This document shows, in pieces, positions 5,812-45,364 of a stretch of DNA of 64,000 bases. The stretch comes from Daphnia carinata (taxonomy: Eukaryota > Arthropoda > Branchiopoda > Diplostraca > Daphniidae), in NCBI RefSeq assembly GCF_022539665.2, contig NC_081334.1:4620424-4684423 (forward strand), given 5' to 3'. The position numbers were made by a program, and so were the translations under genes. The notes under the pieces are model-generated. The model did not search any database, was not told where the DNA came from, and saw nothing but the letters and a program-made list of their open reading frames with translations. Numbering within the stretch: the stretch's first letter is position 1; each line of letters opens with the position of its first letter.

Positions 5812-6444
5812 CTAATACAATTCCTGGTGGGTGTTAATGTTCTCGATTTCACTTCCACATTTACTAATGAAGGCGTTTACACGACCGTCCAAAGCGTTAG
5901 GGCTATCGATGTCAACCAACCAACTAAAAAAAAAGTTAATATACGTGGATTTGGAATAAAAACAACAGTAACTTAAAAAATATATTTATATAGATAATAA
6001 TAAAAATAAATCTTGTGCTACTCACCTTGAAGCATTTTTCATTGCCTCCAAGAAGTTTCTAAAATCATCAATTTTCCAGGAACGGACCTCGTGAGTCAAT
6101 TTGTTTCTCAGCTTCCTTAATTGTCTGACATTGTCAGCAAAGTTCGAAACTAGCGGGTCTCTCGCTCCATCCACATAAAATGGATTTTTTAAAGCGTATT
6201 TCAAAACTTCCAGTGAACCATTATCTTGAAGAGGTGATTCTTTTCCCCACTCCGACATATACAAGGGTTCTTCAGGTAAATGCAGGAACCATTCGAGCAG
6301 GATGTCTGCAAATTCGTCTAGGCAAATTTGTCCTTGAATACGTCTCCTAGTTACGTTGGAATCCCAATACCCGCCCTTGATCAAAACAAATATGGGATTT
6401 GCAAAACCAAGGCTGTTGTAGTTGGGTTGGTTCACCTGGGCCAT
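5812..6444 (-). CDS. HEPN-A: small HEPN-like protein, divergent partner of KAC-2
   Basis: Two exons (6444-6026 and 5923-5812) join in frame to give 176 aa. The start is the ATG at 6444, chosen because all three paralogues align from this Met (MAQVNQP). Conserved blocks are GFANPIFVLI near the N-terminus, then RRRIQGQICLDEFADILLEW, then LRNKLTHEVRSWKIDDF near residue 120. The R-N-K-L-T-H string fits the RX4H active-site motif of HEPN-superfamily ribonucleases, a superfamily that also includes the KEN domain of IRE1 and RNase L. The protein ends in LY. There is no signal peptide or membrane segment, so it is probably cytosolic. It is transcribed away from KAC-2 across a short shared promoter region. 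RNase activity is inferred from the motif alone. Confidence 0.75.
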
Positions 6445-6960
6445 GCTAAAATAAAAAGTCAATAGCTTTTCTTTACGAATAGAACTCTATGAGATACTTT
6501 ATCGAAGGAGAACGGAGTTGCACTGTCGCTCACTTCAGTCCGGGATCTAGTTGGGACTTCAAGAGTGTTACTAGCAGATTTACATTTGAAGACACCTTTT
6601 AAAATGATCGTCGTTTGGCAGTGGGGAAAAACCAGAATCTTAAACCCAGAAATTATCTCGATATCTCTCTGGTGGTTTTTTATCAGGTGCTTCGCCGATA
6701 AAATTTTGATACTATGTTTTTACCATGTTTGTACATTATTACCCCAGTTATGAAAGCTGTTTTCTACGATAAAGTATTTCAATGGTTTCTAGATCAACAA
6801 ACAAAAAAACACAAAAAAAATTCTTCATCAAAACTGTCCAAACGTAAGTCTCCAAATGAGCAAACGAGAATCAAAAATAACCGAAAATGGCAACAACAGC
6901 AAAAAAAAAAAAATCATCTGACTGGCAGCGTTACGAATAATTTTATGCTCCACAGATAGT
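6445..6960. promoter_or_regulatory. Shared promoter region between HEPN-A and KAC-2
   Basis: This short region separates divergent start sites. A block at about 6,508-6,600 (words CGGAGTTG, GCTCACTTCA, ATTTACATTTGAA) is conserved in the matching positions of the other two cassettes (31,047-31,150 and 38,661-38,770). A remnant of an upstream leader exon follows at 6,600-6,690. No TATA box is obvious. Bidirectional regulation is inferred from the layout. Confidence 0.45.
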
Positions 6961-6962
6961 GT

Positions 6963-9900
6963 GCATTCAATAACCTCGATCGTAAAGATGTTTTATGGAA
7001 AGGCAAATATAGTGAAGTGTTTCAAGGTACTTATAAAGGTCGAAGTATAGCAGTCAAACGAATTCCGAAGAGTGGAGTTGAAAAACAAAACGAGTTAAGA
7101 ATTTTGCAGGAGTTAAACCATCCCAATATAGCTAAATTTCTCCATTCCACAAGCGATGGCGTCTTCAAGTAAGATTCTTACGTGATAATTTTTATTCAAA
7201 AAGAGAACATCCATATGATTATTAGCGTTTCAGTTACTATGCTTTGGAATTTTGCGGCGCATCGTTGGATCAAGTGTTCCTGAATCAAGACGATCCTCGA
7301 AAATATAAAGGACCTGCATTAAAGCCTATCAATGTTTTCTTGCAGTTAGCTTCCGGCCTCAAACATATTCACTCAAAGAAGCTAATCCACGGAAACATTA
7401 ATCCGAAAAACATCCTGATTTCTGTGAAACCTACTGACCATGACGAAGAGGTAACGATCAAGTGGGCTGATTTTGGATTGTCTGAAGCTGTGGACGAACA
7501 GGAAACATTCACATTGAGTGGCATCCAAGAAACTCGACTTTGGTTCGCCCCCGAACTGTTACAAATTTCAGACGAAAAACTACGCATACAGGAAACAAAA
7601 GGCTCTATCGAAAGCGACGTCTTCGCAGAAGGCCTCGTCTTCGGTTTTATTCTCTTAAAAGGAAGACATCTCTATGGTGAGGATCATCATGCAATCGAGC
7701 AAAACCTCAAGGATAACAATCCAGTTAATATGGGTCGTAAGTTTCCTATTCAAACACATCACATAACATGAGCATGCTAATTAAATGTTTGAATTATTTT
7801 ATTACAGAAATTCACAAATTGCATTGGGCACGTAACTTGATAGAAAAAACGTTGACTAACACACCTACTACTAGAATTACGTCTGAACACGTCTACGCTC
7901 AACTCCACACCATAAAAATTGAAGTAATTACGTCGTTTAAATTCTGAAATGGTAGCCAGACTAGTTACTGTGTTTTTTAACGTTCACATTTTTTTTATTA
8001 AGCTTCTGAAGGATGAAAAAGAGCTGCTTCAGCTGGCTGAACATAGCAATGCGAATTCGGATTTGAAGAATAAGATGGAATATTTCATTCAACTTGGAGT
8101 TGACGTGAACGCAAAGGACGAGATCGGAAGGAATATGCTCCACTATTTGTGTGAAAACAATTCAAGCCCACACTTAATCGATATAATTCAACTTTTCGTC
8201 AAATTCGGCATCGACGTGAACGCGAAGGACAAGACCGAAATGAATGTGCTCCATTATTTGTGTTTAAACAATTCAAGCCCACAATTAATCGAAGCAATTA
8301 AACTCTTATTCCAACACGGCATCGACGTGAACGCAAAAGACCACAACGAAGGGAATGCGTTCCACTATTTGTGTTCTAACAATTCAAGCCCACACTTAAT
8401 CGATGTAATTCAACTTTTCGTCAAATTCGGCATCGACGTGAACGCAAAGAGCAAGTACGGAAACAATGCGCTCCACTATTTGTGTTCTAACAATTCAAGC
8501 CCACACTTAATCGATGTAATTCAACTTTTCGTCAAATTCGGCATCGATGTGAACGCGAAGGACAAGACCGAAATGAATGTGCTCCATTATTTGTGTTTGA
8601 ATAATTCAAGCCCACAATTAATCGAAGCAATTAAACTCTTATTCCAACACGGCATCGACGTGAACGCAAAAGACCACAACGAAGGGAATGCGCTCCACTA
8701 TTTGTGTTCTAACAATTCAAGCCCACACTTAATCGATGTAATTCAACTTTTCGTCAAATTCGGCATCGACGTGAACGCAAAGAGCAAGAACGGAAACAAT
8801 GCGCTCCACTATTTGTGTTCTAACAATTCAAGCCCACACTTAATCGAAGCAATTAAACTCTTATTCCAACACGGCATCGACGTGAACGCAAAAGACGACA
8901 ACGAAAAGAATGCGCTCCACTATTTGTGTTCTAACAATTCAAGCCCAAACATAATCGGCGCAATCCAACTCTTGGTCGAACGCGGCATCGACGTGAACGC
9001 AAAATGCGACAAAGAAAAGAATGCGCTCCATTATTTGTGTGAAAAAAATTCAAGATCAAACTTAATCGATGCAATTAAAATCTTGATCGAACTCGGCATT
9101 GACGTGACCGCAGAGGACGCATATGGAATGACAGCGCTAACTTCTGTTTTGACGATGGACTGCACAGGTTCTCAAATAGGAAAGTAATGAAAACACGATA
9201 TGAATACGACGGGTTTCGACCAAATATGGTACGTGACGAAACTGATATCCTAGAGATACTAGGCCTATCTAGTACTGATTTCTCTAAACTAAAATATCGA
9301 AAAGATGAAGCTAAAAAGGTAACATACTTCATTATACACAGCAGAAAAAAAAATTTATCAATCAATTTGATCAATTCAGTTCCGTAACAAGGTGGGAAAA
9401 CTTCAGTTTCTACAAGGAAAAAGCGAAGTATCCATTCAAGAAGATGACGATACGAACATAAAAGAAAAGGGTAAAAGTAATTCACTCCATGGTTTGTGCC
9501 GTAGCAATTCAAGCTCAAATTTTATCAACGAAATAAAACGCTTGATCGACCTCGGGTACAACGTGAATGATAAGGACAAGGACGGAAAAAGCCCGCTCCA
9601 TTATTTGTGCCAGTACAATTCAAGCCCACATTTTGTCGATGCAATTCAACTCTTATTCCAACACGGCATTGACGTGAACGCAGAAAGTGACAATGAAAAG
9701 AATGCGCTCCATTATTTGTGTCAGTACAATTCAAGCCCACGCTTAATCGATGCCATCCAACTTTTCGTCCAACACGGCATCGACGTGAACGCAAAAGACA
9801 ATTACGAAAAGAATGCGCTCCACTATTTGTGTGAAAACAATTCAAGCCCACACTTAATCGATGCAATTCAACTCTTGGTACAACTCGGCTTTGACGTGAA

Positions 9901-11259
9901 CGCAAAGAGCAAGTACGGAATGAATGCGCTCCATTATTTGTGCCAGTACAATTCAAGCCCAAAATTAATCGACGCAATCCAACTCTTGGTCGAAATCGGA
10001 ATCGACGTGAAAGAAAAGGACAAGGACGGAAGGAACTCGCTCCATCATTTGTGTCAGTACAATTCAAGCTGGCATTTAATCGATGCAATGTATCTTTTAG
10101 TCAAACTCGGTATCGACGTGAAAGAAAAGGACAAGGACGGATGGAACCCGCTCCATTATTTGTGTCGGTACAATTCCAGTTCAGACTTAAGGGGCGCAAT
10201 TCAAATCTTAATCCAACATGGAATTAATGTGGAAGAAAAAACCAATGATGGATGGAACGCTCTGCATTTTTCGTGTCAAAACAATTCAAACTCAAACTTA
10301 CTTGAAATACTTTCAATTTTAATCGAAAAAGGCGTGGACATCAACGAAAAAACCAACCGTGGTGAAAATGCAATCGATATCTTAGTCAAGAACGAGATTG
10401 ATGAAAATCTAAAATCAAACGTCCTAAAATTTCTAATTCGACATGGGATTCGAGTGCACCTCGACAATACAGTCAGTCCAAATGTGAATCAATACGTTTT
10501 CAAAGAAAACGATAATTATGATGGAAGGTTTTTAAACCTACTGACAAAGAAAGAAATCCGTTTGGGATGGCATGAGCAATGTGAAAATTGCAATCAAATA
10601 CTGTAAGTAGCTGTTGTAACGATATGACAAAAAAAAACAACGTGCGTTACACATGTGTCTAATTCACCCTTTTCATTAGGTCAATTGAGAGAAATCCCCG
10701 AGTACGATTGCAGCACCACCACATGTTTGGCAACTGTTACAGAGTATTTCACTTTCTCTTGAAACATTTAGAAACATGGGCGAAATCAAACCAAGAATCA
10801 GGGGAATCAGAGATGGATATGCGCAACCCAGCAGAGTGGCTGCGCAAAAAAGCAGAACAATATCATCAAAGTGAAAACGAAATAACATACAAAGAAAACT
10901 TGGAAGTAATGGCGGAGGTCAGTGAGCAAGTAAAAAAAGGGAGCAACTCGCGGGATTTTAACTGTGACAACTATGAACGCTATTTGAGATCCATGTACTC
11001 GATTGCGGAGATGATCGACTCCAACGAGTCAATGGGACAAATCAAATGGTTTTATCTTTTACCTTTTGATTTTCCCATGGATTACGAAAATGAGAAAGAT
11101 TCAGAAATCAAACGAGCGAAAATTGAATGGGACAAGACGCTTTTCAGCTGGGCGCACAGCGAAACTGACACATGTTACGGCACGTTTATGAAAGAAGATG
11201 CCAACGAGGGATTTTTCCTGCCGAAACAGTTCAAGCACAAGTGTCATGGTGAGCTCTAA
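6963..11259 (+). CDS. KAC-2: pseudokinase-ankyrin-C-terminal-domain protein, possibly broken
   Basis: Exons by splice signals and paralogue alignment: about 6963-7168, 7234-7736, 7808-7923, 8003-9318, 9380-10602, 10680-11259. The N-terminal part is an IRE1/RNase L-style kinase fold with IAVKR and ADFGLS. However, the catalytic loop reads HGNINPKN instead of HRDIKPEN and the glycine loop is degenerate (WKGKYSEVF), so it should be catalytically dead. No in-frame ATG precedes the first exon before a TAG at 6957; the start may lie in an unseen exon or be lost. About 9 ankyrin repeats follow, then a one-base frame change near 9,150-9,187, about 9 further repeats, a tail with CENC, and the conserved 580-base last exon. 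The last exon has no indel relative to the other copies, which argues that the protein was functional until recently or still is. Confidence 0.7.
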
Positions 11260-13860
11260 TGATACTATGTTGATGTCAATCAACATAAGGAATAATTCAA
11301 ATTCCGACAATAGCGTTCTTTTACGTCAAAAATGCGTTATTGTTTTATCGTAGAACTTGATGGCAAATTACAAGAACATTAAGCGTCAACTCCTTAAGGA
11401 AATGTTTGTTGTAATTTATTGTTTCGCCATCCTAACCGACTCATAAAGAGTGCAGCTATTGATCACAACGAAAAAAAAAATGCGAACCAAGATGGGCAAA
11501 TGACGTATGATAGCTTAGTTAACAGTATGAAGGAAAAAGATTTCAGAAGGAACGCCTCCACCTTTTTAACTGGAAACGGGATTGAAGTGCATCGCAAATA
11601 TGATGTGACGCAACAGACGGAAACAGAAACCTGGCAATTTTTGGAACAAGGGATTTTGATTTGTTTTTTTTTTTTTAAATAATAGCATAATGTTGTCTTT
11701 CTAGTTTCCCCAATATAGTGACGGCTATAAAATACACTTGGAGTGCACTAAGACGCCGGTAACAAAGCATAAAATTTAGCAGTAGAAAAATAAATAAAAT
11801 ATAAATGATGTGAAAATATGGCTGGTTGATGTGATCGTGTATGCTACGTATCTTGTTTACGTAAGCACTTTTGTTGCCCAACGACAGCTAACGTTTTGAA
11901 AGGGTAAAGTTGAGAACATTCTACTATATAGAGCAATGGTAGTTTTGTTTTTCAAACGGACCTAAACATTGTAAACTATTTGAGGCGAATATTTCACCTA
12001 TGAAGTTGACCAATTTGTCTGTGCAACTTTGCATCGAAACAACGATAAGAACAGCTTGCACCATCACGGAAAATGGGAAAAAGATAAGCCAGACAACAAA
12101 ACAAAGCATTGAGCAGTATCTTGCCCAATAAATAGTAATAAAAAAGAAACAAATAAGATAGAATAAAAGAATCATATCGGTTAGCCGACAGATAATTGGC
12201 CTAACAATGTTGAAACTATTTCGCTAGATGTTCTCCACTCGAACAAATTTCAGTTTCTTTCAAATGGCAAAGTATTTTCAAAAGTAAATTGTTGGCTTCT
12301 GCGAAAACCCCAAACGCAAATGGTGCTAATTAGCAGATTGCTTTGAAGTAACTGATCTCGAAATAAAAAGGAATCGTAAAAAAAGGGAATACGTAAACGA
12401 AAAACAATAGGTTGGTACCAATTCCTTCCAAAATATGTTTTCCCAATCCAATCCCTAGCAACCCGTCAATATGGAAGAGAAAACAATGAATTTTGAATAG
12501 CCTTGGATGAGTTCATGCGAAAAATCGAACAAAAGTCAATACTCTATTCAGCTATCTGAACGTACTAGGAGAAAAGTTGACAAAAAAGCGAAAACAACTT
12601 GAAATTCCCGTTAGAGAAAATTAAATCAAAATCTGACGATGCGTAAGAGCACAGCCGGTGTTTCAGCTGACACCATGATCAGTGCACCTAACCTCCAAAA
12701 AAAGCAAATCTGTTCAAGTTGGTATTCTTGCAAAAACGCAAGAGCAAAACAAGCCTAGCCTGAAACATGTTCATGGCAGTAGACAAACAGAAAAGACCAG
12801 ACGCTAAGAAGAACTTAGTATAGTCTCGCTGATACGACTTCGATCCATCATGCAATCAACAAAGCCAATCGAAACAGTTTGTGTGTGAAAAAGAATCACA
12901 AGTAGTATTAGATAGAGGGTGAGTTGCCTACCTTAAGATTCTCATAGCTCTGCTCCACAGATATTGTTGTGTGTGTGTGCAGGTGTCAATGAAACGTATC
13001 CCTCCAATTCAATCCTGAGAAGAATTCAACGAACGAAAGGTGTCCTCTCCTAACACCCATTCAAGTCAGCAAGTGCCAGCTTCATATCCCCATCTGTTCT
13101 AGGCTGCACCAACCAAGCAACTAGAAACGAAGCAGAAGCTTGATTTATTACAGAATAGACCATAGCTTTGGTATTGACTTATTGCCTATGTTACACCGTT
13201 ACTATGTCCAACTACATAGAACCAGAATAAAGAAAAACAGTAGAGAGATGTATAACACCATAAAACACCATAACGAAAATGTGGAAATACCTGGTAATGC
13301 TTTGATGGGATTGTCCGAGTTGGTTTGTTTCCATTTCACAAAAGTTCATGACAAAGGAACAATTGAAACAAAGTTGGATTTTCTTTCATATTGCTTCTGG
13401 TTATGATATCTGTAATTGACAAGTGTCTCCATTAGATTTCAAAGTCTTGCATGACAAAGTTCATGAAAAGTCTGACAGACAATTGCTTAATTTAAAATTG
13501 CACATGTACTAAATAAAAATATGCTCACTTACACACACAGACGCATCTAGGTGCCATTTCAATAACAGCCAATTCGGGCATGAAGCTCAGCAACTGAGTA
13601 ATTTTCGGAACATCTATATACCATTTCATTTATCATTTTTTTGTTGAAATGTAGTCTAATCATCAACCTTGTTCAGTATAGTTGACCTGCCGTTTGAAGA
13701 AGTGCTTCAGTTCAACATGTTTTCTTCAGTAGGCGCCTTAACGTTAATGCCACATCTGGCCACATGGAGTAGTTTGGCGCTGTGACAAGTAACAGCATCT
13801 AGTGGTCACATTTGAATCGCAGTGAAAAAAGTTAAGTCACGTGACCTGAACAAGTTGGAT
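11260..13860. repeat. Cassette downstream unit 2 (decayed)
   Basis: Homologous to the other units that follow KAC genes. It contains the ankyrin-tail relic (listed separately). It also carries the minus-strand exon-like sequence near 12,940-13,120, here with several in-frame stops, and the terminal conserved block near 13,740-13,830. A CA/GT-rich patch lies near 12,965. No intact gene is seen. Confidence 0.65.
11419..11685 (+). pseudogene. Decayed ankyrin-tail exon
   Basis: An 87-codon open frame has a segment RRNASTFLTGNGIEVHRKYD that resembles the KAC ankyrin tail (SNVLKFLIRHGIRVHLDN in KAC-2). There is no splice context linking it to KAC-2, which ends at 11,259. Related relics, more decayed, are at about 3,040-3,200 and 45,720-45,930. 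It is probably a remnant of an older duplicated KAC 3' end; a short separate gene is less likely. Confidence 0.35.
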
Positions 13861-14640
13861 GGCCAACATTGGATTATTAATCACGAAAGTAGAGCAACAT
13901 GTGTGTAAGAATCCCACTCTACGCCATAAAAAAAAAAGCCAAAACGAAACGAGCATATCGCTAAGCACATTGCCTATCTAAACGAACATACGGAATGAAA
14001 AAAAACTTTTGATTGACGACATTCAATACTGCACAAACTTTCTTGACATGCATTTGCATAGTTTTGATCCCTTTAGATGCCAAGAATTTAGAACTCCAAG
14101 GATTCAGTGATTCAGTTTGCTAGCATGAGATAAATGTTCACTTTTCATCTACCAGATGCCAGCCTGTGCAAACCTTACCACTTAGATGGCTGTTTCTTAC
14201 GCTGTCCTGCCGATGTATCGTACGTATTATTTGGCCTTTGCGTTTGCAAGTATCTGGTTACCTCTTCGTTTGCTGGTTTCAAGAACAGTTATTGATTAAT
14301 TTTTGTATTATTGAATATGATATAATTAATTACTCAATACCTGTATAACGTTAACCATACACAATTTTCGTGAACGATCATTATTTTTTAAAACGTTAAC
14401 ACAAACTAAAAATCTTACCTTGAAAGATTGAGCTACCTCCTATGATGCCAGATTGTTTTTATTTCGTTTTTTTTCTTCTCTCTTTTGTTTTTTTCCTTGG
14501 CCTAGGTTTTTCACAATACTCGGAGAACTTGTATCAACTTAGCAGCATCTTGTATCAGCCTATGCATTTTCACAACCAGTCAGCCATCTATGAATTAAGT
14601 TCCATGCTTCACAAATGGGTAAATTGGTACTAATAATGTC
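13861..14640. other. Spacer duplicate, no gene seen
   Basis: This block matches 36,840-37,490, the spacer before HEPN-C, including the shared words TACTCAATACCTGTATAACG and the T-rich tract at 14,455-14,500. No HEPN gene follows here. Sequence similar to its right part reappears at 29,680-29,850 before HEPN-B, so it marks the left border of foreign sequence inside the cassette array. Confidence 0.5.
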
Positions 14641-15690: not shown

Positions 15691-15699
15691 TTCAGCATA

Positions 15700-30329: not shown

Positions 30330-30978
30330 TTAATACAAATTCGGATAAAGGTCAATGTTTTTGAGTTCCTCTTTACACTTAGTAATCAAATCCATTACGC
30401 GGCTGCTTAAATCGTTAGCCCGGTCACTGCAGTTAACCAAAAATCTAGCAAAAAACGAATATACGTGGATTTGGAATGAAAATAACAGCTAAACAAGATT
30501 ACAAAATAAGACAAAATAAGAGTACATAGGAAATGTTTTGTGTTACTCACCGTGAAGCATTTCTCGTTGCATTCAAGAGTTCTATAAAATTTTCAATCCT
30601 CCATGAACGGACCTCGTGAGTCAATTTGTTTCTCTGGTCTTTTACTCTTCGGACATCATGCTGAAATTGCCACACCTCCCCTTCGGGAAAATGAACAGGA
30701 AAAACAAAAGTTTCGGCGAATTTCAAAACTTCAAGTAAACCCTTATCTTCAAGGGGTGCACGGTGTGTGGTTTCATCTACTGTCCACCGATACATGGGGC
30801 GGCGGGTGACAAGTAATTGCAGGAACCATTCGAGCAAAATATCTCTAAATTCTTCTAGGCAAGCTTGTCCTTGAATACATCTCCTATTACCCTTGAACTT
30901 CCAATACTCGCCGTTGATCAAAACAAATTTAGAATTTGCAAAACCACCCAATCTAAGTCGTTGGTTTCTCTGGGACAT
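30330..30978 (-). CDS. HEPN-B: small HEPN-like protein, divergent partner of KAC-3
   Basis: Exons 30978-30551 and 30444-30330 give 180 aa, start MSQRNQRLRLGGFANSKFVL. Conserved blocks are RRCIQGQACLEEFRDILLEW and VKDQRNKLTHEVRSWRIENF; the R-N-K-L-T-H string is the HEPN RX4H signature. The second exon (FLVNCSDRANDLSSRV to YPNLY) is predicted helical and charged. Overall length, exon position and intron phase match HEPN-A and HEPN-C, so the family is maintained as a protein-coding gene. The gene lies head-to-head with KAC-3. A nuclease or RNA-binding role is inferred from HEPN-type motifs; no catalytic test is possible here. A non-HEPN helical protein with a chance motif is the alternative. Confidence 0.8.
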
Positions 30979-31744
30979 GCTTAATAAAAAGGCAATAACT
31001 TTAACTTTTGTTTATGACTAGGACTCAACGAAATACTTTGGTGTAACAGGGCGGAGTTGTACTGTTGCTCACTTCACGGTTCGTTCACTTTGTTTTGCGG
31101 AGGATCTAGTTGGGACATTAACAGTGTCATCTAGCACACTTAGATTCAAAGGCGTCTTTTAAAATGGCGTCGTTTGACAGTGGGGAAAAATCCAGAGTCC
31201 TAAACCAAGAATTGTTTCGATATCTCTCAGGTGGGATTTTCATCAAGTGCTTTATCGATAGAACTTTAACTATGTTTTTATCTTGGTTGTACATTATAAC
31301 GCCAGGTATGAAAGCTGTTTTCTACGATAAGCTTTTTAATAGTTTCTAGATCAACAACAAAAAAACAAACAAATTTACAAACTCAGATAAGTGTTTAGGG
31401 ACGACGATAAGGCAACGAAAAGTTTCCTGCTTGTAGAACCGTGAAACCTTCTTTCTACCTTCTAATTCCGACTTAATAAATATTATAATTTATAAAATCT
31501 TCTGGTCAAGCTTATCAGCAAAATATCGTTTTTCGTTCGCCTCACATGGTTGTGTAAAGGCCATTTGACTGATGAAAAACCAGACCAGTAGATATCAGTG
31601 CGACATGATCAACTGAAGGCGTGGGCCATTTTGCCAAGGATTGGAAGAAAGCTTTTGCAACAGCCCCATTTGGAAACTGTCTTGTATCCTTTCACCTATC
31701 TTGGTTATTCCGGAGTTAATTATTTCTTTTTGTATGTTGAGAAG
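30979..31744. promoter_or_regulatory. Shared promoter region between HEPN-B and KAC-3
   Basis: Conserved block at 31,047-31,150 (GCTCACTTCA, GGATCTAGTTGGGACAT). An additional potential leader exon with an ATG at 31,164 (MASFDSGEKSRVLNQELF) ends at a GTGGGA donor near 31,230; the other cassettes have only corrupted versions of it. It may be an alternative first exon of KAC-3 or untranslated. Confidence 0.45.
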
Positions 31745-34700
31745 ATGGAGGAAATTCCTACTAAAAAAAGGAAACTAATTTCGATCGACAGTAAGCCCGA
31801 CCGTGTACAACTAGGAGGTGGTAACTTTGGAAACGTATTTAAAGGAAAGTTCAAAGGCCGTCCAGTCGCAGTAAAAAAAGTTTTACTGCAAAATTGGAAT
31901 GAAGAAGGAGTAAATGCTATGAAACAATTGGATCATCCAAACATCGTCAAACTATTTCATTGCGAAAGTGACAGAGACTTCAGGTAAGATTACTTCGTCT
32001 TGATTTTGAAGTAAAACTAAATCAATATCTGTTTTTTTTTCGCCATGCTACAGGCACTATGCATTGGAATTGTGTAACGCTTCGTTGGATAGGCTGTTCT
32101 TAGATTCGGATCACCCCCAAAAATATAAGGGACCAATGCCACGTCACATTGAAGTTTTCCATCAGTTAGCTTCAGGTCTCGAACACATCCATTCAAAGAA
32201 CTTTATTCATCGAGACATCAAACCGAAAAATATCCTCATTTCGTTGCGAACTGCCGGCGAAAATGAAGAGATAACAATCAAATGGGCAGACTTTGGACTG
32301 TCTAGAACAGTCAACGAGCGGGGTACATTCACAATGAAAAGCGGAATCAAATTGACAAAAAAATGGCTTGCTCCCGAAATATTGAGACTTTTGGGGAAAG
32401 GCGAAGAGGGTCGAGGAGACGTAAGGAGCGACGTTTTTGCACTTGCCCTCGTCTTTGGTTATTTTTTATTGGGCGGGCAACATCTGTACGGTTCTATTCA
32501 ACATAACGAACAAATTATCAGAAACATAATCGAAGGAAAGCCAATCAACATGCAACGTAATTCCCGATATCCTAGAATAATATTCTTTTCTGTTAACGAA
32601 GAATTTATTGTTCCATTGTAGAAATTGATGAAAAATTACGCGGCCTTTACGAAGATGAACTACTTAAAAAAATGTTGGAAGACGATCCTACCAAAAGAAT
32701 GACATCAACAGAAATTGTCCACCAACTAAACTCTATCAAAGAAAAGGTTGAATCAATTAGATGAAATTCCAATTCAAATGTTGATCATCAAAATAATTTT
32801 CAATTGATTTTGTTCAGCTTACTAAAAAAGAGGAAGAATTGCGTCAACTATGTTGTGGTGACTCTCAATTCGGTCTAAACGAAAAAGTCAAAGACTTGAT
32901 AGACTTCGGAATTGACGTGAACGCAAAAGACAGATGGAAAAGCAATGCGCTCCATCTTTTGTGTGAAAACAATTCAAGCGTAAATTTAACTACCGCAATT
33001 CAAATCTTGGTCCAATCCGGAATCGATGTGAACGCAAAGATCCAATATGGATCGAATGCGCTCCATCTTTTGTGTATAAACAATTCAAGCGAACATTTAG
33101 CTGACGCAATTAAAATCTTGGCTCAATCCGGAACCGATGTGAACGCCAAGGACCAAAATGGGCAGAATGCGCTCCATCTTTTGTGTGAAAACAATTTAAG
33201 CAAAAACTTAACCGACGCAATCGGAATTTTAATTCAATACGGAATCGATGTGAATGCCAAGGACGGACATAGACGGAAAGCGATCGATTACTTGCTTTTT
33301 AACAACGATAATTGGAAAGCAATTCAAATCCTAAAGAAAGCAACTAGTACTGATTTCTCGAAACCAACATATGGGAAATCTGAAGATGAAAAGGTAACAT
33401 AATTCATTACACAAACAAAAAAAAATTTACGTTAATAAATTTTTTCAATTCAGTTCGTTGAAAGAGACGGAAAATTGCGTAAAATGCGTCCTAATAATTT
33501 TTTGTCGCCTTTATCAAGAGAAAACAAAGTATCCATTCAAGGCGATAACGACGCGAACATGAAGGACAAGGGTGAAAGAAATGCACTCCATGTTTTGTGT
33601 CAACACAATTCAAGCTCAAGCTTAATCAACGAAGTAAAACACATGATCGAAGTCGGCCACAAGGTGAATGACAAGGACAAGGACGGAAGGAACGCGCTTC
33701 ATTACTTGTGTAGATACAATTCCAGTTCAGACTTGAGGGGAGCAATTCAAATATTAATCGACAACGGAATCAAGGTGGAAGAAAAGACAAACGAAGGATG
33801 GAACGCGCTCCATTTTACGTGTCAAAACAATTCAAACTCAAAGTTAGTTGAAATACTTTCAATTTTAATCGAAAAAGGAGTGGATGTCAATGAAAAAACC
33901 AAAAGTGGTGAAAGTGCAATCGACATCTTAGCCAAGAGTGAGATCGATGAAAATCTGAAATCAAACGTCCTCAGATTTCTAATTCGACATGGGATTCAAA
34001 TGCATCTCGACAACAAAGCCAGCCCAAATGTGAATAAATATTTTATCAAACAAGACGATAATTATGGTGAACAGTTTCTAAACCTACTGGCGAAGCAAGA
34101 AATCCGTTTAGGATGGCATGAAGAATGTAAAAATTGCAATCAAATACTGTAAGTAGCTGTTATAACCATTTCATTAAAAAAAACCGTTCGTTATGCGTGT
34201 CTATGATTCACTCTTTTCATTAGGTTAATTAAAAGAAAATACCAAGTAGGATTGCAACACCACCACAGGTTTGGCAGCTGTTATAAAGTATTTCACTTAC
34301 TCATGAAAAATTTAGAAACGTGGGCGAAATCAAACCAAAAATCTGGGGAATTAGAGCTGGATATGAGCAACCCAACAGGGTGGCTGCGCAAAAAAGCAGA
34401 ACAATATTATCAAAGTGAAACCGAAAAAAGATACAAAGAAGACTTGGAAGTAATGGCTGAGGTCAGTGAGCAAGTCCAAGACGGGAACGAATCGGGTGAT
34501 TTTAACTGTGACAACTACGAACGCTATTTGAGATCCATGTACTCGATTGCGGAGATGATCGGCTCCAACCAGTCAATGGGACAAATCAAATGGTTTTATC
34601 TTTTACCTTTTGATTTTCCCATGGATTACGAAAATGAGAAAGATTCAAATATCAAACGAGCGAAAATCGAATGGGACAAGACGCTTTACAGCTGGGCACA

Positions 34701-34803
34701 CAACGAAACTGACACCTGTTACGGCCGCTTTATGAAAGAAAATGCCAACGAGGGCTTTTTCCTGCCAGACGAGTTCAAGCACAAGTGCCATAGTGAACTA
34801 TAA
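31745..34803 (+). CDS. KAC-3: protein kinase-ankyrin-C-terminal-domain protein
   Basis: Six exons (31745-31983, 32054-32556, 32622-32746, 32818-33393, 33454-34148, 34224-34803) join in frame to 905 aa. The kinase has a canonical glycine loop (LGGGNFGNVFKG), VAVKK, FIHRDIKPKNILIS, ADFGLS and LAPE, so it should be active. Its HRDIKPxNILIS loop and C-lobe end (KMLEDDPTKRMTSTEI) resemble IRE1/RNase L kinases. Seven to eight 37-residue ankyrin repeats follow, in two blocks split by an intron, then a tail ending GWHEECKNCNQIL and the roughly 190-residue conserved C-terminal domain. The ATG at 31745 (MEEIPTKKRK) is the best start immediately before the kinase. Its divergent partner is HEPN-B. Likely a cytosolic signalling or sensor kinase; ligand unknown. 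Confidence 0.88.
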
Positions 34804-36840
34804 TAATACTATGTTGATGTCAAGAAACAAAAAGAATATTCACAAATTACCACAATAACATTCTTTTTCTTTACGGAGGCGTTATTGTTTTATCGTAGAC
34901 ATTGATAGCAAATTACAAGAATATACAGCGGAGCAACTCCTTAAGGAAATGTTTGTTGTAATTTATTGTTACGCCATCTTAATCGATTCATACAGAATGC
35001 AGCTATTGCGTGTGTTTACGTAAGTACTGTACTTCTGTCGAGCAACGGCAGATAACCTTTTAGAAGGGTAAAAGTGGAGAACTAGACTAGACACTCTAAG
35101 ATTCTAGTAGAAACAACATTTTCAACATTTAGCTCAATAAGTAATAATATTTAAAAAAAGAAATAAGATAGAATAAAAGAATTACATCTCTTAGTCGACA
35201 GAAAATTGGCCTAAAAATGTTTCTACGATTCCTCTAGATGTTGGAGAAATGTTCAACCCAGTAGAATAAATTTCCGTTTCTTTCAAATGCCAAAGAATTT
35301 TCAAATGTAAATTTTTGCTCCGGCGAAAACCCCAACGCAAATGGTAGTAATTAGCAGATCGCTTCGACGCAACTGATCTCGTAATAATAAGGAATAAGAA
35401 ACGAAAAACAAAAGGTTGATACCAGTTCCTACAAAAATTTGTTATCCCAATCCCTAGCTATCAGTCAATATGGAGGAGAATGCAATGAATTTTAAATAGT
35501 CCTAGATGAGTTCATGCGGAAAAAAAACCCAAAGTCAACACTCTATTCAGCTACCTTGAACGTGATAAGAGGAAAATTCACAAAAGAACAAAGGGAATTA
35601 AAAATCCTTTTAGATTTTTAAGAAGCGAAGGACAGTCAGTGTTTCAGATGACACCATGACCAGTGCACCTAACCTCAAAAAAAAATAGCAAATCTGTTCA
35701 AGTTGGTATTTTTGCAAAAACGCAAGAGCAAAACAAGCTTGGCCTGACACATGTTCATGGCAGTAGACAAACACACAAGACCAAACGCTAAGAAGACCTT
35801 GGTATAGTCTCGCTGATACGAGTTCGATCCATCACGCAATCAACACAGCCAATCAAAACAGTTTGTGTGTGAAAAAATCACAAGTAGTATTAGATAGGGG
35901 TGAGTTTCCTACCTTAAGATGCTCGTAGCTCTGCTCCACGGATAGGGATGCTTGTGTCAATGAAATGTATCCTTCCAATCAAATCCTGAGAAGAATTCGA
36001 CAATGCAAAAGGTGACCTCTCCTAACACCCATTCAAGTCAGTAAGTGCCAGCTTCATATCCCCATCTGTTCTAGGCTGCACCAACCAAGCAACTAGAAAC
36101 GAAGCAGAATCTTGATTAATTATAGAATAGACCATAGCTTTGAAATTGACTTATTGCCTATCTAACACCGTTACTATGTCCAACTACATAGAACCAGAAT
36201 CAAGAAACACAGTAAAGAGATGAATAACACCATAAAACACCATAACGAACATGTGGAAATACCTGGTAATGCTCTGATGGGATTGTCCGAGTTGGTTTGT
36301 TTCCATTTCACAAAAGTTCACGGCAAAGGAACAATTGAAACAAAGTTGGATTTTCTTTCAAATTGCTTCTGGCTAAGATATCTGTAATTGACAAGTGTCT
36401 CCATTAGATTTCGAAGTCTTGCACGACAAAGTTCATGAATAGTCTGACAGACAATTGCTTAATTTAAAATTGCACATGTACTAAATAAAAATATGCTCAC
36501 TTACACACACAGATGCATCTAGGTGTCATTTCAATAACAGCCAATTGGGGCATGAAGCTCAGCAACTGAGTAATTTTCGGAACATCTATTTACCATTTCA
36601 TTTATCAAATTTTTTGTTAAAATGTAGTCTAATTATCAATCTTGTTCAGTCTATTTGCTCTGCTGTTTGAAGAAGTGCTGCAGTTCAACATTTTTTCTTC
36701 AGTAGGCGCCTTAACGTTAATGCCACATCTGGCCACATGGAGTAGTTTGGCGCTGTGACAAGTAACAGCATCTAGTGGTCACATTTGAATCGCAGTGTAA
36801 AATGTTAAGTCACGTGACCTAAGCAAGTTGGATGGCCAAC
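34804..36840. repeat. Cassette downstream unit 3 (decayed)
   Basis: Shorter version of the unit after each KAC gene; the ankyrin-tail relic is largely deleted. The minus-strand exon homologue near 35,910-36,090 carries the in-frame TAG seen in units 1 and 2. The right end holds the conserved CTAGTGGTCACA block near 36,770-36,782. No intact gene. Confidence 0.65.
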
Positions 36841-37924
36841 TTTGGATTATTAATCACGAAAGTAGAGCAACATGTGTGTAAGAATCCCACTCTACGCCAT
36901 AAAAAAAAAAAGCCAAAACGAAACGAGCATATCCCTAAGCACATTGCCCATCTCAACGAACATACGGAATGAGAAAAAAAAAACATTTGGCTGAGGATAT
37001 TCAATACTGCACAAAACTTTCTTGACATGCATTTGCATAGTTTTGATCCCTTTAGATGCCAAGAATTTATGCCAAGAATAGATGCCAGCCTGTGCAAACC
37101 TTACCACTTTGATGGCTGTTTCTTATGCTGTCCTGCCGATGTATCGTACGTATTATTTGGCCTTTGCGTTTGCAAGTATCTGGTTACCTCCTAGTTTGTT
37201 GGTTTCAGGAACAGTTATTGATTAATTTTAGTATTATTGAATATGATATAATTAATTACTCAATACCTGTATAACGTTAACCATACACAATTTTCGTGAA
37301 CGATCATTATTTTTTTAAACGTTAACAGAAACTAAAAATCTTACCTTGAAAGATTGAGCTGCCTCCTATGATGCCAGATTGTTTTTATTTCGTTTTTTTT
37401 CTTCTCTCTTTTGTTTTTTTCCTTGGCCTAGGGTTTTCACAATACTCGGAGAACTTGTATCAACTTCGCAGCATCTTGTATCTTGTATCAGCTTTAACTA
37501 AAACCAAAGATAATGATGTGCCATGGACTGTCGAACCATCGGAATATCGGTCCTTTTTCTTTTTCCTGTAACTGTATTCTAAATTCATCAGAAATTCATA
37601 ATATAACACATACACCACAACTGTGAATAGTAGTCCTTTTATCTCGAATAACTCCGACTGTTATGTTTTAGCGCAAATCAGGCGTCTCTCCAATTTGTGT
37701 CATGAAACGAGTACTGGGTTATTAATATTTTGTTTATCTCAAGTTCAATAACGTCATAGCACTACTCGATATTCCACACTAAGCGAATAAATACGCCAGT
37801 AAAGAATATAGCTTTGGACAGTATGGATAAATTGTTTAAAAGAAATGCACGCTGCTTTTAAAGAAAAGAAGAAAAGAAAGAATGACACCTCTACGTTAGT
37901 ATTTATTATAAGCCACATGAGTAG
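36841..37924. other. Spacer before HEPN-C
   Basis: Homologous to 13,861-14,560. Contains a T-rich tract at 37,380-37,430. No supported gene; the 3' untranslated end of HEPN-C probably lies near the right edge. Confidence 0.45.
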
Positions 37925-38590
37925 CTAATACAAGTGCGGAAAGTCCTTAATATTATCGATTTCCTTTTTACATTTACTAATGAAGTCTTCTAGACGATTT
38001 TTCAAAGCGTCGTTATGGTGACCGGATTCAACCAAAGAACTAAAAAAAATTTAATATATGCGGGTTGGGAATAAAAGTAGCAAAAAAAAAGAAAAACAAA
38101 AAGAATAAAATACAAATACAAATAAAAGTAAATAATAGGAGAAGTCTTGTGGTACTCACTTTGAAGCATTTTTCATTGCCTCCAAGAAAATTGTAAAATC
38201 AGTAATCTTCCATGAAAGGACCTCGTGAGTCAATTGGTTTCTCATTTCCTTTAGTATTTCCATAGCTTTCTTGAAATTGGTAGGATTATGCGATTTTTTT
38301 GCTCCGTTTGCAAGGTAATAATAGGAGAAATGAGCAAATTTCAAAACTTCCAGGGAACCCTTTTCTTTAAGATGTGTAGGTTCGTTGTCTGGATGACGAT
38401 ATATGGGTTCTTTGGGTTTCATTCGATCTTGAAACCATTCGAGCAGAATATCTCGAAATTCTTCAAGACAAGCTTGTCCTTGAATACATCTCCTTGTTAC
38501 ATTGGAATTCCAATATGAGCCGTTCATCAAAACAAATCTGGGATTTGCAAAACCAACCACGTGGTCGGTGGGTTGGTTCATCTGGGCCAT
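37925..38590 (-). CDS. HEPN-C: small HEPN-like protein, divergent partner of KAC-4
   Basis: Exons 38590-38160 and 38039-37925 give 181 aa, starting MAQMNQPTDHVVGFANPRFV. It shares RRCIQGQACLEEFRDILLEW with HEPN-B. The signature is LKEMRNQLTHEVLSWKITDF, which keeps Arg, Asn and His of the RX4H motif. In human IRE1 the KEN domain has MRNKKHH at its active site, which is a suggestive but short match. The second exon ends DFPHLY. The Met chosen is the one conserved in all three copies; an in-frame upstream ATG at 38,641 exists but is not conserved. It is transcribed away from KAC-4. Confidence 0.8.
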
Positions 38591-39622
38591 GCTAACATAA
38601 AAAGCAAATAATTTAAACTTTTGTTTATGAATAGAACTCAACGAAATACTTCATAGAAGCAGGACGGAGTTATACTGGCGCTCACTTCAGGCTCGTTCAC
38701 TTTGTTTTTCGAGGATATCGTTGGCACATCAGCAGTGTTATCCGGTAGATTTACATTTGAAAGACGCCTATAAAAAAAGCCCTCGTTTCACAATGGGGAA
38801 AAACCAGAGAGATATCAAGATAACTTTTTAGTCTTCATGGTGGGATTTTTATCAAGTGCATTGCCGAAAAAACTTTGACTCTATGTTCTTATCATAGTTG
38901 TACTACATTATTACGCCAGTGACGAAAGCTGTTTTCTACGATTAAGTATTTCAATGGTTTCCAGATCAACGAAAAACAAGCAATAAAACCAAAAAACACA
39001 AACAAAATTACAAATTCATCGAAACTGAGATAACCTTAAAAGGTGAGCAACAAATATAATATAATAAATATACGAGTATGTTCATCATAGAAATGACGTA
39101 GCCTAGCCTATATTCATGGTACATATATTTAAAAAGAAAAGAAGGGGGAAAAGCTTACGGAAAGATAACGAGAAAACAATTCGATAAGGTATACGTGTCG
39201 AAAGCGAACAGTGCAAAGCGCAATTAGTAAAAGCTCTATGTTAAAACGTTTTACGCCCAGAAAACTGAAAGGAAACGATAAAAGGATTGAAAGTTACTAT
39301 CAGCAAATTATTAATTCGATGCAAATCACTTGAAAGCCCTCGGCTACGAGAAAATCGTCACGTAAAAATTATTTGAAGTGATTTTAAGGAGCAAATGGAA
39401 AGACCTACTGACATTTCACAGGGATCAAAAGGTAGACGAAGCGATAACAAATCATTATCTGCATTGGACTTGTCCCTGTTTTATGCTTCACAGATAAACT
39501 GACTGATAAATTCAAAGCGATTTCGCGTTGCAAGTGAGGGTTGTCCAGTGTTAAACGGTATTTTCCAATAGTAGCTCGTACAAGTTCTCATCTCGCTAGT
39601 TTCGGGTGCAATTAAGTCTAAA
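38591..39622. promoter_or_regulatory. Shared promoter region between HEPN-C and KAC-4
   Basis: The conserved block is at 38,661-38,770 (GGAGTT, GCTCACTTCAGGCTCGTTCA). The following 800 bases hold only a corrupted leader-exon remnant and no open frame, so the KAC-4 leader may be long or spliced. Confidence 0.45.
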
Positions 39623-42600
39623 ATGCCATCGACTACTGCCGTAAATGTAGACGGCATCCAATTCGATAGCAATGATGTTTTGGGTCATGGTGGCTACCAT
39701 TCAGTTTATCGTGGAACATATAAAGATCAAATTGTAGCAGTGAAAAGAACTTTTAAGAAAAATGGCAAAGCTCAAGAAGATGACAACGAATTAAAAATTC
39801 TGCAACAGTTAAACCATCCCAATATAGTTAAATTTGTCCACTTCGCAAGCAATGCCGACTTCAAGTAAGATTGTTATGTGATAACGTTGAATTAAAACGA
39901 GAATTTCCATATGATTTTTGCGATTCAGTTACTTTGCTTTGGAATTGTGCGACGCATCATTGGATCACGTGTTCCTAAATGAGGACGATCCTCAGAAATA
40001 TAAAGGACCTGCATTACCAAATAATTTCGAGGTTTTCTACCAGTTAGCAACTGGTCTCAAATACATTCATTCGAAGAAACTAATCCATCGGGACATTAAA
40101 CCGGAAAACATTCTCATTTCTGTGAGAAATACTGACCAAGGTGAAGAGATAACGATGAAGTGGACTGATTTTGGATTGTCAAGAGCAGTGAGTGAACGAG
40201 GAACATTCACAATGAGTGGACTCAAAGGGACTATACTTTGGTTCTCTCCCGAAGAGATGGAAATTATGGGCAGAAACCTAAGCACTGAAAAAACTAGAGG
40301 CTCAATCAAAAGCGACGTTTATTCAGAAGGTCTTGTCTTTGGTTATATTCTCTTGAAAGGAAAGCATATTTACGGTGAAAATCAATATGATATTGTGGTG
40401 AACATGAGGCACAACAATTCAACCAATATGAGTGGTAAGTTACCTCTTGAGGCAGACCATATAACATAACCATACTAGTTAAATGTCTAAAACTTTTAAA
40501 AAATAGAAATTCACCAGACACATTTAGCACGTAACTTAATAGAACAAATGCTGACCAACACACCTGAAACAAGAATTACATCTGAAGAAGTTGTTAATCA
40601 GCTTGAAGCCATAAATATCAAAGTAAGCAATTCACACAAGTCTAACACCTTCTTCGTCAGTGAAATTTTAGTTTTCTAACAAAAGTTTTCCATTTAGCTT
40701 AGCGAAAAGGAAAAACAGCTTCATCAGCTGTCTACATGTCCCATAACAGATTGTAGGAATAACATCGAATCTTTAATACAACTCGGTGTCGACTTAAACG
40801 CAAAGGATGACGAAGGATGGAATGCGCTTCATCTTTTGTGTCGAAACAATTCAAGCCCACACTTAATCGATGCGATTAAACTCTTGATCGAACTCGGCAT
40901 CGACAAAAACGCAAAAGCCAACGATGGAGCGAATGCGTTTCATCATTTGTGTTCTAACAATTCAAGCCCACATTTAATCGATGCGATTAAACTCTTGATC
41001 GAACTCGGCATCGACAAAAACGCAAAAGCCAACGATGGAGCGAATGCGTTTCATCATTTGTGTTCTAACAATTCAAGCCCACATTTAATCGATGCGATTA
41101 AACTCTTGATCGAAATTGGCATCGACAAAAACGCAAAAGCCAACGATGGAGCGAATGCGCTTCATCTTTTGTGTCGAAACAATTCAAGCCCACACTTAAT
41201 CGATGCGATTAAACTCTTGATCGAACTCGGCATCGACAAAAACGCAAAAACAAACGATGGAGCGAATGCGCTTCAATATCTGTGTCAATTCAATTCAAGC
41301 CCACACTTAATCGATGCGATTAAACTCTTGATCGAACTCGATTTCGACAAAAACGCAAAAGCCAACGATGGAGCGAATGCGCTTCATCTTTTGTGTCGAA
41401 ACAATTCAAGCCCATACTTAATCGATGCGATTAAACTCTTGATCGAACTCGGCATCGACAAAAACGCAAAAACAAACGATGGAGCGAATGCGCTTCAATA
41501 TCTGTGTCAATTCAATTCAAGCCCACACTTAATCGATGCGATTAAACTCTTGATCGAACTCGATTTCGACAAAAACGCAAAAGCCAACGATGGAGCGAAT
41601 GCGCTTCATCTTTTGTGTCGAAACAATTCAAGCCCACACTTAATCGATGCGATTAAACTCTTGATCGAACTCGGCATCGACAAAAACGCAAAAGCCAACG
41701 ATGGAGCGAATGCGTTTCATCATTTGTGTTCTAACAATTCAAGCCCACATTTAATCGATGCGATTAAACTCTTGATCGAACTCGGCATGGACAAAAACGC
41801 AAAAGCCAACGATGGAGCGAATGCGCTTCATCTTTTGTGTCGAAACAATTCAAGCCCACACTTAATCGATGCGATTAAACTCTTCATCGAACTCGACTTC
41901 GACAAAAACGCAAAAACAAACGATGGAGCGAATGTGCTTCATCTTTTGTGTCGAAACAATTCAAGCCCACACTTAATCGATGCGATTAAACTCTTGATCG
42001 AACTCGGCATCGACAAAAACGCAAAAGCCAACGATGGAGCGAATGCGTTTCATCATTTGTGTTCTAACAATTCAAGCCCACATTTAATCGATGCGATTAA
42101 ACTCTTGATCGAACTCGACTTCGACAAAAACGCAAAAACAAACGATGGAGCGAATGCGCTTCATCTTTTGTGTCGATACAATTCAAGCCCAAACTTAGTT
42201 GATGCGATTAAACTCTTGATCGAACTCGGCATCGACAAAAACGCAAAAACAAACGATGGAGCGAATGCGCTTCAATATCTGTGTCAATTCAATTCAAGCC
42301 CACACTTAATCGATGCGATTAAACTCTTGATCGAACTCGGCATCGACAAAAACGGAAAAACCAACGATGGAGCGAATGCGCTTCATCTTTTGTGTTATAA
42401 CAATTCAAGCCCACATTTAATCGATGCGATTAAACTCTTGATCGAACTCGGCATCGACAAAAACGCAAAAACCAACGATGGAGCGAATGCGCTTCAATAT
42501 TTGTGTCAATTCAATTCAAGCCCACACTTAATCAATGCGATTAAACTCTTGATCGTACTCGGCATCGACAAAAACGCAAAAGCCAACGATGGATGGAATG

Positions 42601-45364
42601 CGCTTCATCTTTTGTGTCAATTCAATTCAAGCCCACACTTAATCAATGCGATTAAACTCTTGATCGAACTCGGCATCGACAAGGACGCTAAGGACAAAAA
42701 TGGATCAAATGCGTTTCATTTGTTGTGTCGATACAATTCAAGCCCATACTTAATCGATGCGATTAAACTCTTGATCGAACTCGGCATCGACAAAAACGCA
42801 AAAAACAACAATGGGTCGAATGCGCTTCATCTGTTATGTCGATACAATTCAAGCCCATACTTAATCGATGCAATCAAACTCTTGCTTGAACTCGGCTTTG
42901 ATAGAAACGCAAAGGAGAAAGATGGGTGGCATGCGCTTCATCTTTTGTGTCGATACAATTCAAGCCCACAATTAGTCAATGCAATCGAATTTTTTATTCG
43001 CCTCGGCATCGATTTAAATGCAAAGGAAAACGATGGGTGGAATGCGCTTCATCTTTTATGTCGATACCATTCAAGCTCATACTTAATCGACGCAATTAAA
43101 CTTTTGATCGAACACGGCATTGACAAGTACGCTATTGGGAAGGATGGATCCAACGCGCTTCATCTTTTGTGTCGATACAATTCAAGCCCACAATTAATCG
43201 ATGCGATTAAACTCTTGATTCAACTCGGCATCGACAAGGACGCAAAGGATAACAATGGATGGAATGCGCTTCGTTTTTTGTGTCAATACAATTCAAGCTC
43301 ACACTTAATCGATGCAATTCAACTTTTGACCGAAGGCGGCATCGACAAAAATGCAAAGGGGAAAGATGAATCCAACGCGCTTCATTTGTTGTGTCAATAC
43401 AATTCAAGCCCACGTTTTATCGATGCAATCAAACTTTTGCTCGAACTCGGCATCGACAAAAACGCAAAGAGGAATGATGGATTCAACGCGCTTCATTTTT
43501 TGTGTTATAACAATTCAAGCTCACACTTAATTGATGCAATCAAACTCTTGCTCGAACGCGGCATAACCTTAAACCCAAAAGAGAACGATGGATGGAATGA
43601 GCTTCACCTTTTGTGTCGATGCAATTCAAGCCCACACTTAATCGATGCTATTGAACTCTTAATCAAACACGGCATCGACAAGGACGCAAGAACCAACGCT
43701 GGTTCCAACACACTTCATCATTTGTGTTATAACAATTCAAGCCAACACTTGATCCCTGCAATGAAACTCTTGATTAAACTGGGAATCGACAAGGACGCAA
43801 TTAACAACGATGGATTGAATGCGCTTCATATATTATGTTTAAACAATTCAAGCCCATATTTAATCGATGCGATTAAACTCTTGATCGAAGTCGGCATCGA
43901 CAAGGACGCAAGGGATAACGATGGATTGAATGCGTTTCATCATTTGTGTGGATCCAATTCAAGCCCACACTTAATCGATGCGATTAAACTTTTGATCGAA
44001 TTCGGCATCGACAAGGACGCAAGGGATAACGATGGATTGAATGCGTTTCATCATTTGTGTTCTTACAATTCAAGTCCACGCTTAATCGATGCGATTAAAT
44101 TTTTGATTGCACTCGGCTTCGACAAAAACGCAAAAACCGACGACGGATTCAATGCACTTCATCTTTTGTGCCGATACAATTCAAGCCCACACTTAGTTGA
44201 TGCGATTAAACTCATGATCGAACTCGGCATCGACAAAAACGCAAAAACCAACGATGGATGCAACGCGCTTCATCTTTTGTGTCGATATAATTCCAGTTCA
44301 GAATTAAGGGAAGCAATTCAAAGCTTAATCCAACACGGAATCAACGTGGAAGAAAAGACAAACGATGGATGGAACGCGTTCCATTTTTCGTGTCAAAACA
44401 ATTCAAACTCAAATTTACTTAAAATGTTTTCAATTTTAATAAAAAATGGAGTGGATATCAACGAGAAAACCAAACATAATGAAAGTGCAATCGACATCTT
44501 AGTCAAGAATCATATTGATGAAAATTTGAAATCAAACGCCCTCAGATTTCTAATTCGATATGGGATTCACGTGCACCTCGGTAAAAAAGCGAGTCCAAAT
44601 GTGAATCATTACTTTTTCAACGAAAACGATTGTGGAGAGTTTTTAAACCTACTGGCCGAGAAAGGAATCCGTTTGGGATGGCATGAGGAATGTGAAAATT
44701 GCAAACAAATGCTGTAAGTAGCTGTTGTAACCATTTGGCAAAAAAGATTAGATTTACGTGTGTATGATTCACTCTTTTCGTTAGATCAATTGAGGGAAAT
44801 CCCCGGTTACGATTGCAGCACCACCACATGTTTGGCATCTGTTACGAAGTATTTGACTTCCTCATGAAACAGTTAGAAACATGGGCAAAATCAAATCAAA
44901 AATCCGGGGAATCAGAGCTCGATATAAGCAATCCAGCAGAGTGGCTGCGCAAAAAAGCAGAACAATATCATCAAAATGAAACCGAAAAAAAGTACAAAGA
45001 AGACTTGCAAGTAATGGCTGAGGTCAGTGATCAAGTCCAAGACGGGAGCAACTCAGGTGATTTTAACTGTGACAACTATGAACGCTATTTGAGATCCATG
45101 TACTCGATTGCGGAAATGATTAACTCCAAGGAATCAATGGGACAAATCAAATGGATTTATCTTTTACCTCTTGATTTCCTCATGGATTACGAAGATGAGA
45201 AAGAACCAGGCATCAAACGAGCGAAAATGGAATGGGACAAAACGCTTTACATCTGGGCACACAAAGAAACTGACAAACATTACGGCAAATTTATGAAAGA
45301 AGATGCCAACGAGGGCTTTTTCCTGCCGGACGAGTACAAGCACAATTGTCATGGTGAGCTTTAA
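39623..45364 (+). CDS. KAC-4: protein kinase with about 33 ankyrin repeats and conserved C-terminal domain
   Basis: Five exons (39623-39864, 39929-40434, 40507-40622, 40698-44713, 44785-45364) join exactly in frame to 1,819 aa. Kinase (residues about 15-288): LGHGGYHSVYRG (third loop glycine is His), VAVKR, LIHRDIKPENILIS, TDFGLS and FSPE; the catalytic residues are present. The 4 kb ankyrin exon has about 33 repeats of 37 residues, many nearly identical at the DNA level in its first half. The ankyrin tail contains CENC, and the last exon carries the conserved domain (LQHHHMFG, ERYLRSMYSIAEMI). The start ATG is immediately upstream of the kinase fold. It lies head-to-head with HEPN-C. Compared with RNase L the order is reversed (kinase before ankyrins) and no nuclease domain is fused. 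Confidence 0.9.

Follow-up and report, generated by a model that had tools for sequence, protein, structure and literature searches.

We analysed a 64,000-nt stretch of the Daphnia carinata genome (C4:4620424-4684423 of the 108 Mb genome, hereafter the window) in which a gene for a small, HEPN-like protein repeatedly stands beside a gene for a large protein built of a kinase domain, an ankyrin array and a constant C-terminal domain (CTD). The regular partners in these units are the HEPN-like gene and the CTD, and the kinase-ankyrin part looks like an exchangeable module in which catalytic residues are often lost. Tentatively, and at somewhat under an even chance, we read the units as a two-gene effector-sensor module that joins an RNase-like small protein to a CTD partner with an exchangeable sensor. 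Units A, B and C lie in the window, unit D reaches into it from the left, and unit E, the fifth on contig C4, lies further left than D.

HEPN-like and CTD genes occur together

A HEPN-like query returned six loci in the genome, and two diverged queries returned the identical six and nothing else; the first query gave one extra weak match on C2 (E 0.39), where the strand and stretch that were translated held no R-N-x3-H. The CTD query also gave six loci genome-wide, with two further matches only at E above 1. All six HEPN-like genes found adjoin the six CTD genes found, and this 6:6 association is not chance. The pairing that an initial annotation had noticed in the window extends to three further units that lie wholly or partly beyond it, and no unpaired HEPN-like or CTD gene was found.

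Five of the HEPN-like and five of the CTD genes form one cluster on C4, where each pair is divergent, with the HEPN-like gene on the minus strand and the large gene on the plus strand to its right. The sixth locus, on C9, is damaged; its CTD gene lies left of its HEPN-like gene, tail to tail, and the kinase is reduced to pieces while the HEPN-like open reading frame (ORF) and the CTD are intact. To the right of the HEPN-like gene there are further decayed kinase fragments, and the locus resembles what is left of two units. The C9 intergenic region matched no other unit's intergenic region.

Judged by locus tags and contigs, D. sinensis and D. magna have the same association. In D. sinensis, the consecutive tags GHT06_016224 and GHT06_016225 belong to a CTD protein and a HEPN-like protein, and in D. 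magna the contigs given for the HEPN-like proteins and for the CTD proteins have the same length, with tags or gene numbers that are close. A search of the open-access literature found no description of these HEPN-like/kinase-ankyrin pairs.

Probable kinase replacement in units B and C

The HEPN-proximal 390-470 nt of the intergenic region are homologous across all five C4 units; this stretch is homologous rather than constrained, being conserved no better than neutral divergence would give. Past a break in the homology, the intergenic region of B matches a C8 kinase gene that lacks a CTD, at 87% over 510 nt and into kinase exon 1, and the kinase-proximal part of the C intergenic region matches the 5′ flanks of CTD-less kinase genes at 76-83% (six of nine flanks tried). 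The B kinase is 80-81% identical to two C8 loci compared with 54-57% to the other units, and the C kinase is 85% identical to a C45 locus compared with 72, 71 and 61% to D, E and A, respectively. The A kinase is nearest to those of E and D (70 and 69%). At C8:5405611-5419111, where the nearest relatives of the B kinase are located, kinase genes outside the six units are arranged as divergent kinase-kinase pairs.

In a kinase tree of 43 sequences, sampled mostly near unit C, B grouped with a C8 kinase (support 89/84) and C fell within an unresolved clade of 30 that also contains A, D and E. The approximately unbiased (AU) test rejected a single clade of the five C4 kinases (p = 0.0024; p = 9e-70 when ten kinase domains of other species were added) and still rejected it when C was left out (p = 0.009); a clade of A, D and E alone was not rejected (p = 0.27). 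Replacement of the B kinase is well supported by the homology break, the identities and the tree, and that of the C kinase is supported by the break and the identities, with a tree test that is not significant. Gene conversion is a likely route.

Kinase type, catalytic state and related loci

By sequence, the kinase domain is IRE1-type: the best 16 matches of the C kinase exon to PDB sequences were all IRE1 (77.5 to 61.5 bits, E 1e-20 to 8e-16), followed by a match at 55 bits (7e-14). In units A, D and E, HRD is replaced by HGN, which exchanges the catalytic Asp for Asn; in B and C, both HRD and DFG are present. Because of this exchange and of the kinase loss at C9, a function shared by the units would not act there via phosphorylation by this kinase. 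Both motifs are kept in 21 of 27 distinct kinases outside the units. Eight kinase-bearing CTD proteins of D. magna or D. sinensis were read; none of them combines HRD and DFG in one kinase domain, and P0005 among them reads HGD with DFG. Two kinase domains stand in series ahead of the CTD in D. magna P0012 and D. sinensis P0014.

At least 150 loci are related to the C kinase exon at E ≤ 1e-5, as counted after scoring 150 of 294 candidates, and the open-access literature yielded no description of this large Daphnia family of IRE1-type kinases. The loci form large clusters (for example C6:9.45-10.08 Mb, C7:2.45-2.55 and 4.80-4.85 Mb and C3:13.0-13.26 Mb) and lie partly near contig ends, including the ends of C1. 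In five of six extra kinase stretches (L054-L059), the kinase is likewise followed by ankyrin repeats of this kind; L058 is the one in which none were seen, and L054 ends inside its array. None of the 28 kinase loci examined outside the six units matched the CTD or the HEPN-like protein; most of these stretches span only 1.5 kb past the kinase exon. Because the flanks are this short, the genome-wide counts carry the pairing argument.

The KEN domain (PF06479) was found genome-wide only at C1:1475609-1476044, in the IRE1 gene, and at C3:11879129-11879569. The C3 copy belongs to a second, diverged kinase-KEN gene (in stretch L027, C3:11871000-11880999) that reads RDK where IRE1 reads RNK and is possibly an inactive IRE1 relative.

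The small HEPN-like protein

The R-N-x-x-x-H motif of the initial annotation held up across the family: R119-N120-x3-H124 is invariant in all 12 HEPN-like members, which are 35-54% identical to the first member and share 27 invariant columns. It fits the conserved HEPN Rx4-6H motif with a polar residue after the R, and randomly placed invariant letters would give its spacing with a chance of 8e-5, a post hoc figure. The model of the C protein is all-helical (pLDDT 80.3, pTM 0.79), with the motif ending the helix 105-124, and structure comparison gave weak Csm6 matches whose Z was no better than that of unrelated helical bundles. The invariant motif, the helical model and the Csm6 matches are the basis on which we call the protein HEPN-like. 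The top Foldseek matches (OspC and other long-helix proteins) were rejected as bundle noise.

Profile searches with 12 members against Pfam, allowing E up to 5, and with 2 members against NCBIfam, allowing E up to 1, produced no match to a HEPN family. HEPN_Swt1 (PF18731) had no match at the six loci and one weak match elsewhere (C10, E 0.07), in a search in which only one of 14 control genomes gave a signal and none passed the cut-off; the DZIP3 HEPN model was silent on the genome and on the controls too and is hence uninformative. Descent of the small protein from KEN is unsupported: the hhalign alignment was confined to the motif and its surroundings, 11 columns in all, with a probability of 1.1 and a P of 0.049, against a KEN side of only two sequences. 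Several weak matches were attributed to chance: oligonucleotide cyclases in PADLOC, hit by P0001 (E 9e-4) but not by P0002; EfCdnE against the small-protein profile (E 2.9); Pfam DUF7660 in two of 12 members (best E 0.0019); NCBIfam LegC2/C7 (E 0.038); and the PDB sequences of insulin-degrading enzyme, a flavodoxin, Sm D2 and FLT3.

The small protein might instead be a helical adaptor or RNA binder, with R-N-x3-H a coincidence or a relic. The lack of a clear fold match in the structure comparison would agree with this, and an excerpt of PMC3710099 regards some HEPN families as non-catalytic; against it, none of the 12 members departs from R, N or H despite their low identity, and we consider this explanation improbable.

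Another excerpt of the same source describes an expansion of the Ava_2192-like HEPN (Swt1 family) to 46 copies in Daphnia and proposes it as a defence family (PMC3710099). HEPN-type genes multiplied in a Daphnia are common to both cases, but those copies are described there as solos, whereas the six genes here are paired and lack a PF18731 match. In Csm6 of E. italicus, the HEPN residues are R372, N373 and H377, as given in an excerpt of PMC7101355; unlike in Csm6-type HEPN RNases, no CARF domain was seen here.

Ankyrin array and CTD of the large proteins

In B and C, the kinase exons come first, followed by the ankyrin exons and the CTD. By pattern count, large gene C has 33 ankyrin repeats with an exact 37-residue period in 32 of 32 spacings (window 40698-44717); the usual ankyrin repeat has 33 residues. 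Searches of PDB sequences, Pfam and PADLOC with the CTD gave nothing substantial; the best Pfam hit was to Cloacin_immun, at E 0.0092 and for one of the six members. The idea that the CTD hides a KEN or HEPN domain was rejected at profile-comparison probabilities of only 0.9 and 0.4, respectively. The large protein modelled poorly (pLDDT 58.6), and the 50 structure matches seen cover mainly the ankyrin part, so the fold of the CTD was barely probed. Around the CTD of P0003 (residues 702-732 and 901-902), H703, C706, C709, H725, H726, C732, C901 and H902 are invariant and could be candidate zinc ligands.

The Cloacin_immun match bears on an alternative in which the pair would be toxin-antidote-like: the small protein would be a toxic RNase neutralised by the CTD protein, the kinase and ankyrin parts would be passengers or recognition parts, and the pair would be retained because the antidote is needed. 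All six units have an intact HEPN-like ORF and CTD, and four of them a changed or lost kinase; the small protein is the fast-evolving partner, and prokaryotic HEPN toxins are known in such pairs according to an excerpt of PMC3710099, all as this alternative would have it. However, the match is weak and limited to a single member, and large proteins of up to 1819 aa with long ankyrin arrays go beyond what an antidote needs. We regard this alternative as quite unlikely.

Evolutionary rates

From pooled NG86 counts of the five C4 units, the ratio of non-synonymous to synonymous substitution rates (dN/dS) is lowest in the kinase exon at 0.35, stands at 0.58 in the CTD and reaches 0.97 in the HEPN-like gene (bootstrap 0.77-1.24). 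The HEPN-like rate is compatible with two readings, diversification around an unchanging core and a relaxation of constraint. Because the ORFs are intact in six of six units and 27 columns are invariant, pure decay of the HEPN-like genes is argued against. Pairwise distances gave r = 0.33 between HEPN-like gene and CTD and r = 0.82 between HEPN-like gene and kinase (4 of 120 permutations), both from five units and too few to rest on; CTD and kinase distances are opposed (r = -0.66, five units).

The near-neutral rate and the lack of a HEPN-CTD distance correlation would both be expected under linkage without function, in which a HEPN-like gene with another function or none happened to neighbour a kinase-ankyrin gene, the latter acquired the CTD, and both were multiplied by tandem duplication. 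The concentration of five of six units in one tandem cluster and the lack of a significant HEPN match of the small protein point the same way. We nevertheless think this account unlikely: all six HEPN-like ORFs are intact with the motif kept, the pairing is seen again on a second contig and in two more species, and kinase cassettes seem to be exchanged next to a HEPN-like gene and a CTD that persist.

A possible effector-sensor module

The nuclease domains of IRE1 and of RNase L are brought together in pairs by the kinase domain. RNase L, which is activated by 2-5A, has the architecture ankyrin-pseudokinase-KEN, with the ankyrin repeats N-terminal to the kinase. Like IRE1, the Daphnia units have an IRE1-type kinase domain, and the KEN domain also has an RN...H motif (RNKKNH in Daphnia IRE1); apart from that motif, no profile link connects KEN with the small protein. 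Unlike in IRE1, the paired genes lack KEN, the nuclease candidate is encoded separately, and ankyrin repeats and CTD come after the kinase. The units share with RNase L the IRE1-type kinase domain, the ankyrin repeats and, in several of them, the loss of kinase catalytic residues; they differ in that the kinase precedes the ankyrin repeats, KEN is absent and the HEPN-like protein would act in trans. With no KEN and a different domain order, the paired genes are not members of IRE1/RNase L. The split IRE1/RNase L-like system of the initial annotation keeps its IRE1-type kinase and its ankyrin repeats; descent from KEN is unsupported.

In the effector-sensor module that we tentatively favour, the small protein would be a HEPN-type RNase, as its invariant motif and helical model suggest, and the constant CTD of the large protein would hold or control it, as the co-occurrence of the two suggests. 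The opposite end of the large protein, where an IRE1-type kinase or pseudokinase that can be exchanged is joined to ankyrin arrays of differing length, may sense a ligand and gather molecules by analogy with the kinase of IRE1 and RNase L, upon which the HEPN protein would be paired and RNA cut. We propose that the sensor assembles or releases the HEPN effector in trans, with a HEPN fold, nuclease activity, binding, sensing and a role in defence or stress that we infer. A bolder version, rather unlikely in our view, would be that Daphnia has its own trans-acting RNase L analogue, a modular innate immune receptor-effector in which a fast-evolving HEPN RNase is locked to the CTD and recombination swaps (pseudo)kinase-ankyrin sensors drawn from the at least 150 loci.

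Several results weigh against the module. Because five of the six units form one tandem cluster, co-duplication alone is weak evidence of a functional link, and we rejected the argument that co-duplication proves function. The kinase-ankyrin architecture is not specific to the pairs. No search linked the small protein significantly, by fold or by profile, to a known HEPN or KEN domain, although it models as all-helical. Finally, a single clade of the C4 kinases was not rejected by the AU test when B was left out (p = 0.096); this leaves the C replacement without tree support and weakens one of the two cases, which is still backed by the homology break.

If the small protein is an RNase under the control of the large one, an animal group would have split logic of the IRE1/RNase L type over two genes and made the sensing end exchangeable. 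The units would then be a natural setting in which to study the control of HEPN nucleases by (pseudo)kinase modules in trans, and the IRE1-type kinases that make up so large a family in Daphnia would gain a use. Should the RNase claim fall, the replacement of kinases ahead of a constant CTD/HEPN-like pair remains an unusual gene-family pattern that lends itself to testing across Daphnia genomes.

Gene pairs in the window

Pairs A, B and C are all head-to-head, and the HEPN-like genes have two coding exons each (Table 1). All three pairs of the initial annotation are present as placed, with small proteins of 176-181 aa; only B and C are plainly complete, because the large gene of A is frame-split. 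Its ankyrin blocks 7928-9187 and 9103-9387 differ in frame, with the change around 9103-9187, and the corresponding NCBI protein (P0004, 631 aa) begins downstream of the kinase and so lacks it. Three of the genes, HEPN-like B, HEPN-like C and large B, match D. carinata NCBI proteins at 100%; the NCBI version of HEPN-like C is longer by two residues at the start, and a 176-aa entry exists for HEPN-like A (P0019). The fourth large gene, initially described as entering from the left, proved to be the end of unit D, whose kinase and own HEPN-like partner lie left of the window, the HEPN-like gene 4.5-5.2 kb beyond the edge.

Table 1. Positions of the paired genes and their intergenic regions, in window coordinates
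Feature	Position	Strand	Description
Large gene D, 3′ part	3..2981 (ankyrin array 3-2342; CTD exon about 2402-2981)	plus	
HEPN-like gene A	5812..6444 (exons 6026-6444 and 5812-5923)	minus	176 aa, motif LRNKLTH
Intergenic region, pair A	6445..6959		HEPN-proximal ~390 nt homologous to other C4 pairs
Large gene A	~6960..11259 (start approximate)	plus	IRE1-type kinase (HGN for HRD), ankyrin array, CTD
CTD exon A	10680..11259	plus	
HEPN-like gene B	30330..30978 (exons 30551-30978 and 30330-30444)	minus	180 aa, NCBI P0002
Intergenic region, pair B	30979..31744		homology type switches at about 31452-31495
Large gene B	31745..34803 (6 exons)	plus	905 aa; kinase (HRD, DFG present), ankyrin, CTD; 100% to NCBI P0003
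CTD exon B	34224..34803	plus	
HEPN-like gene C	37925..38590 (exons 38160-38590 and 37925-38039)	minus	181 aa, NCBI P0001
Intergenic region, pair C	38591..39622		homology type switches at about 39048
Large gene C	39623..45364 (5 exons)	plus	1819 aa; kinase (HRD, DFG present), 33 ankyrin repeats, CTD
CTD exon C	44785..45364	plus	

Elsewhere in the window, a minus-strand ORF with three C2H2 zinc-finger stretches is located at 58558-59661.
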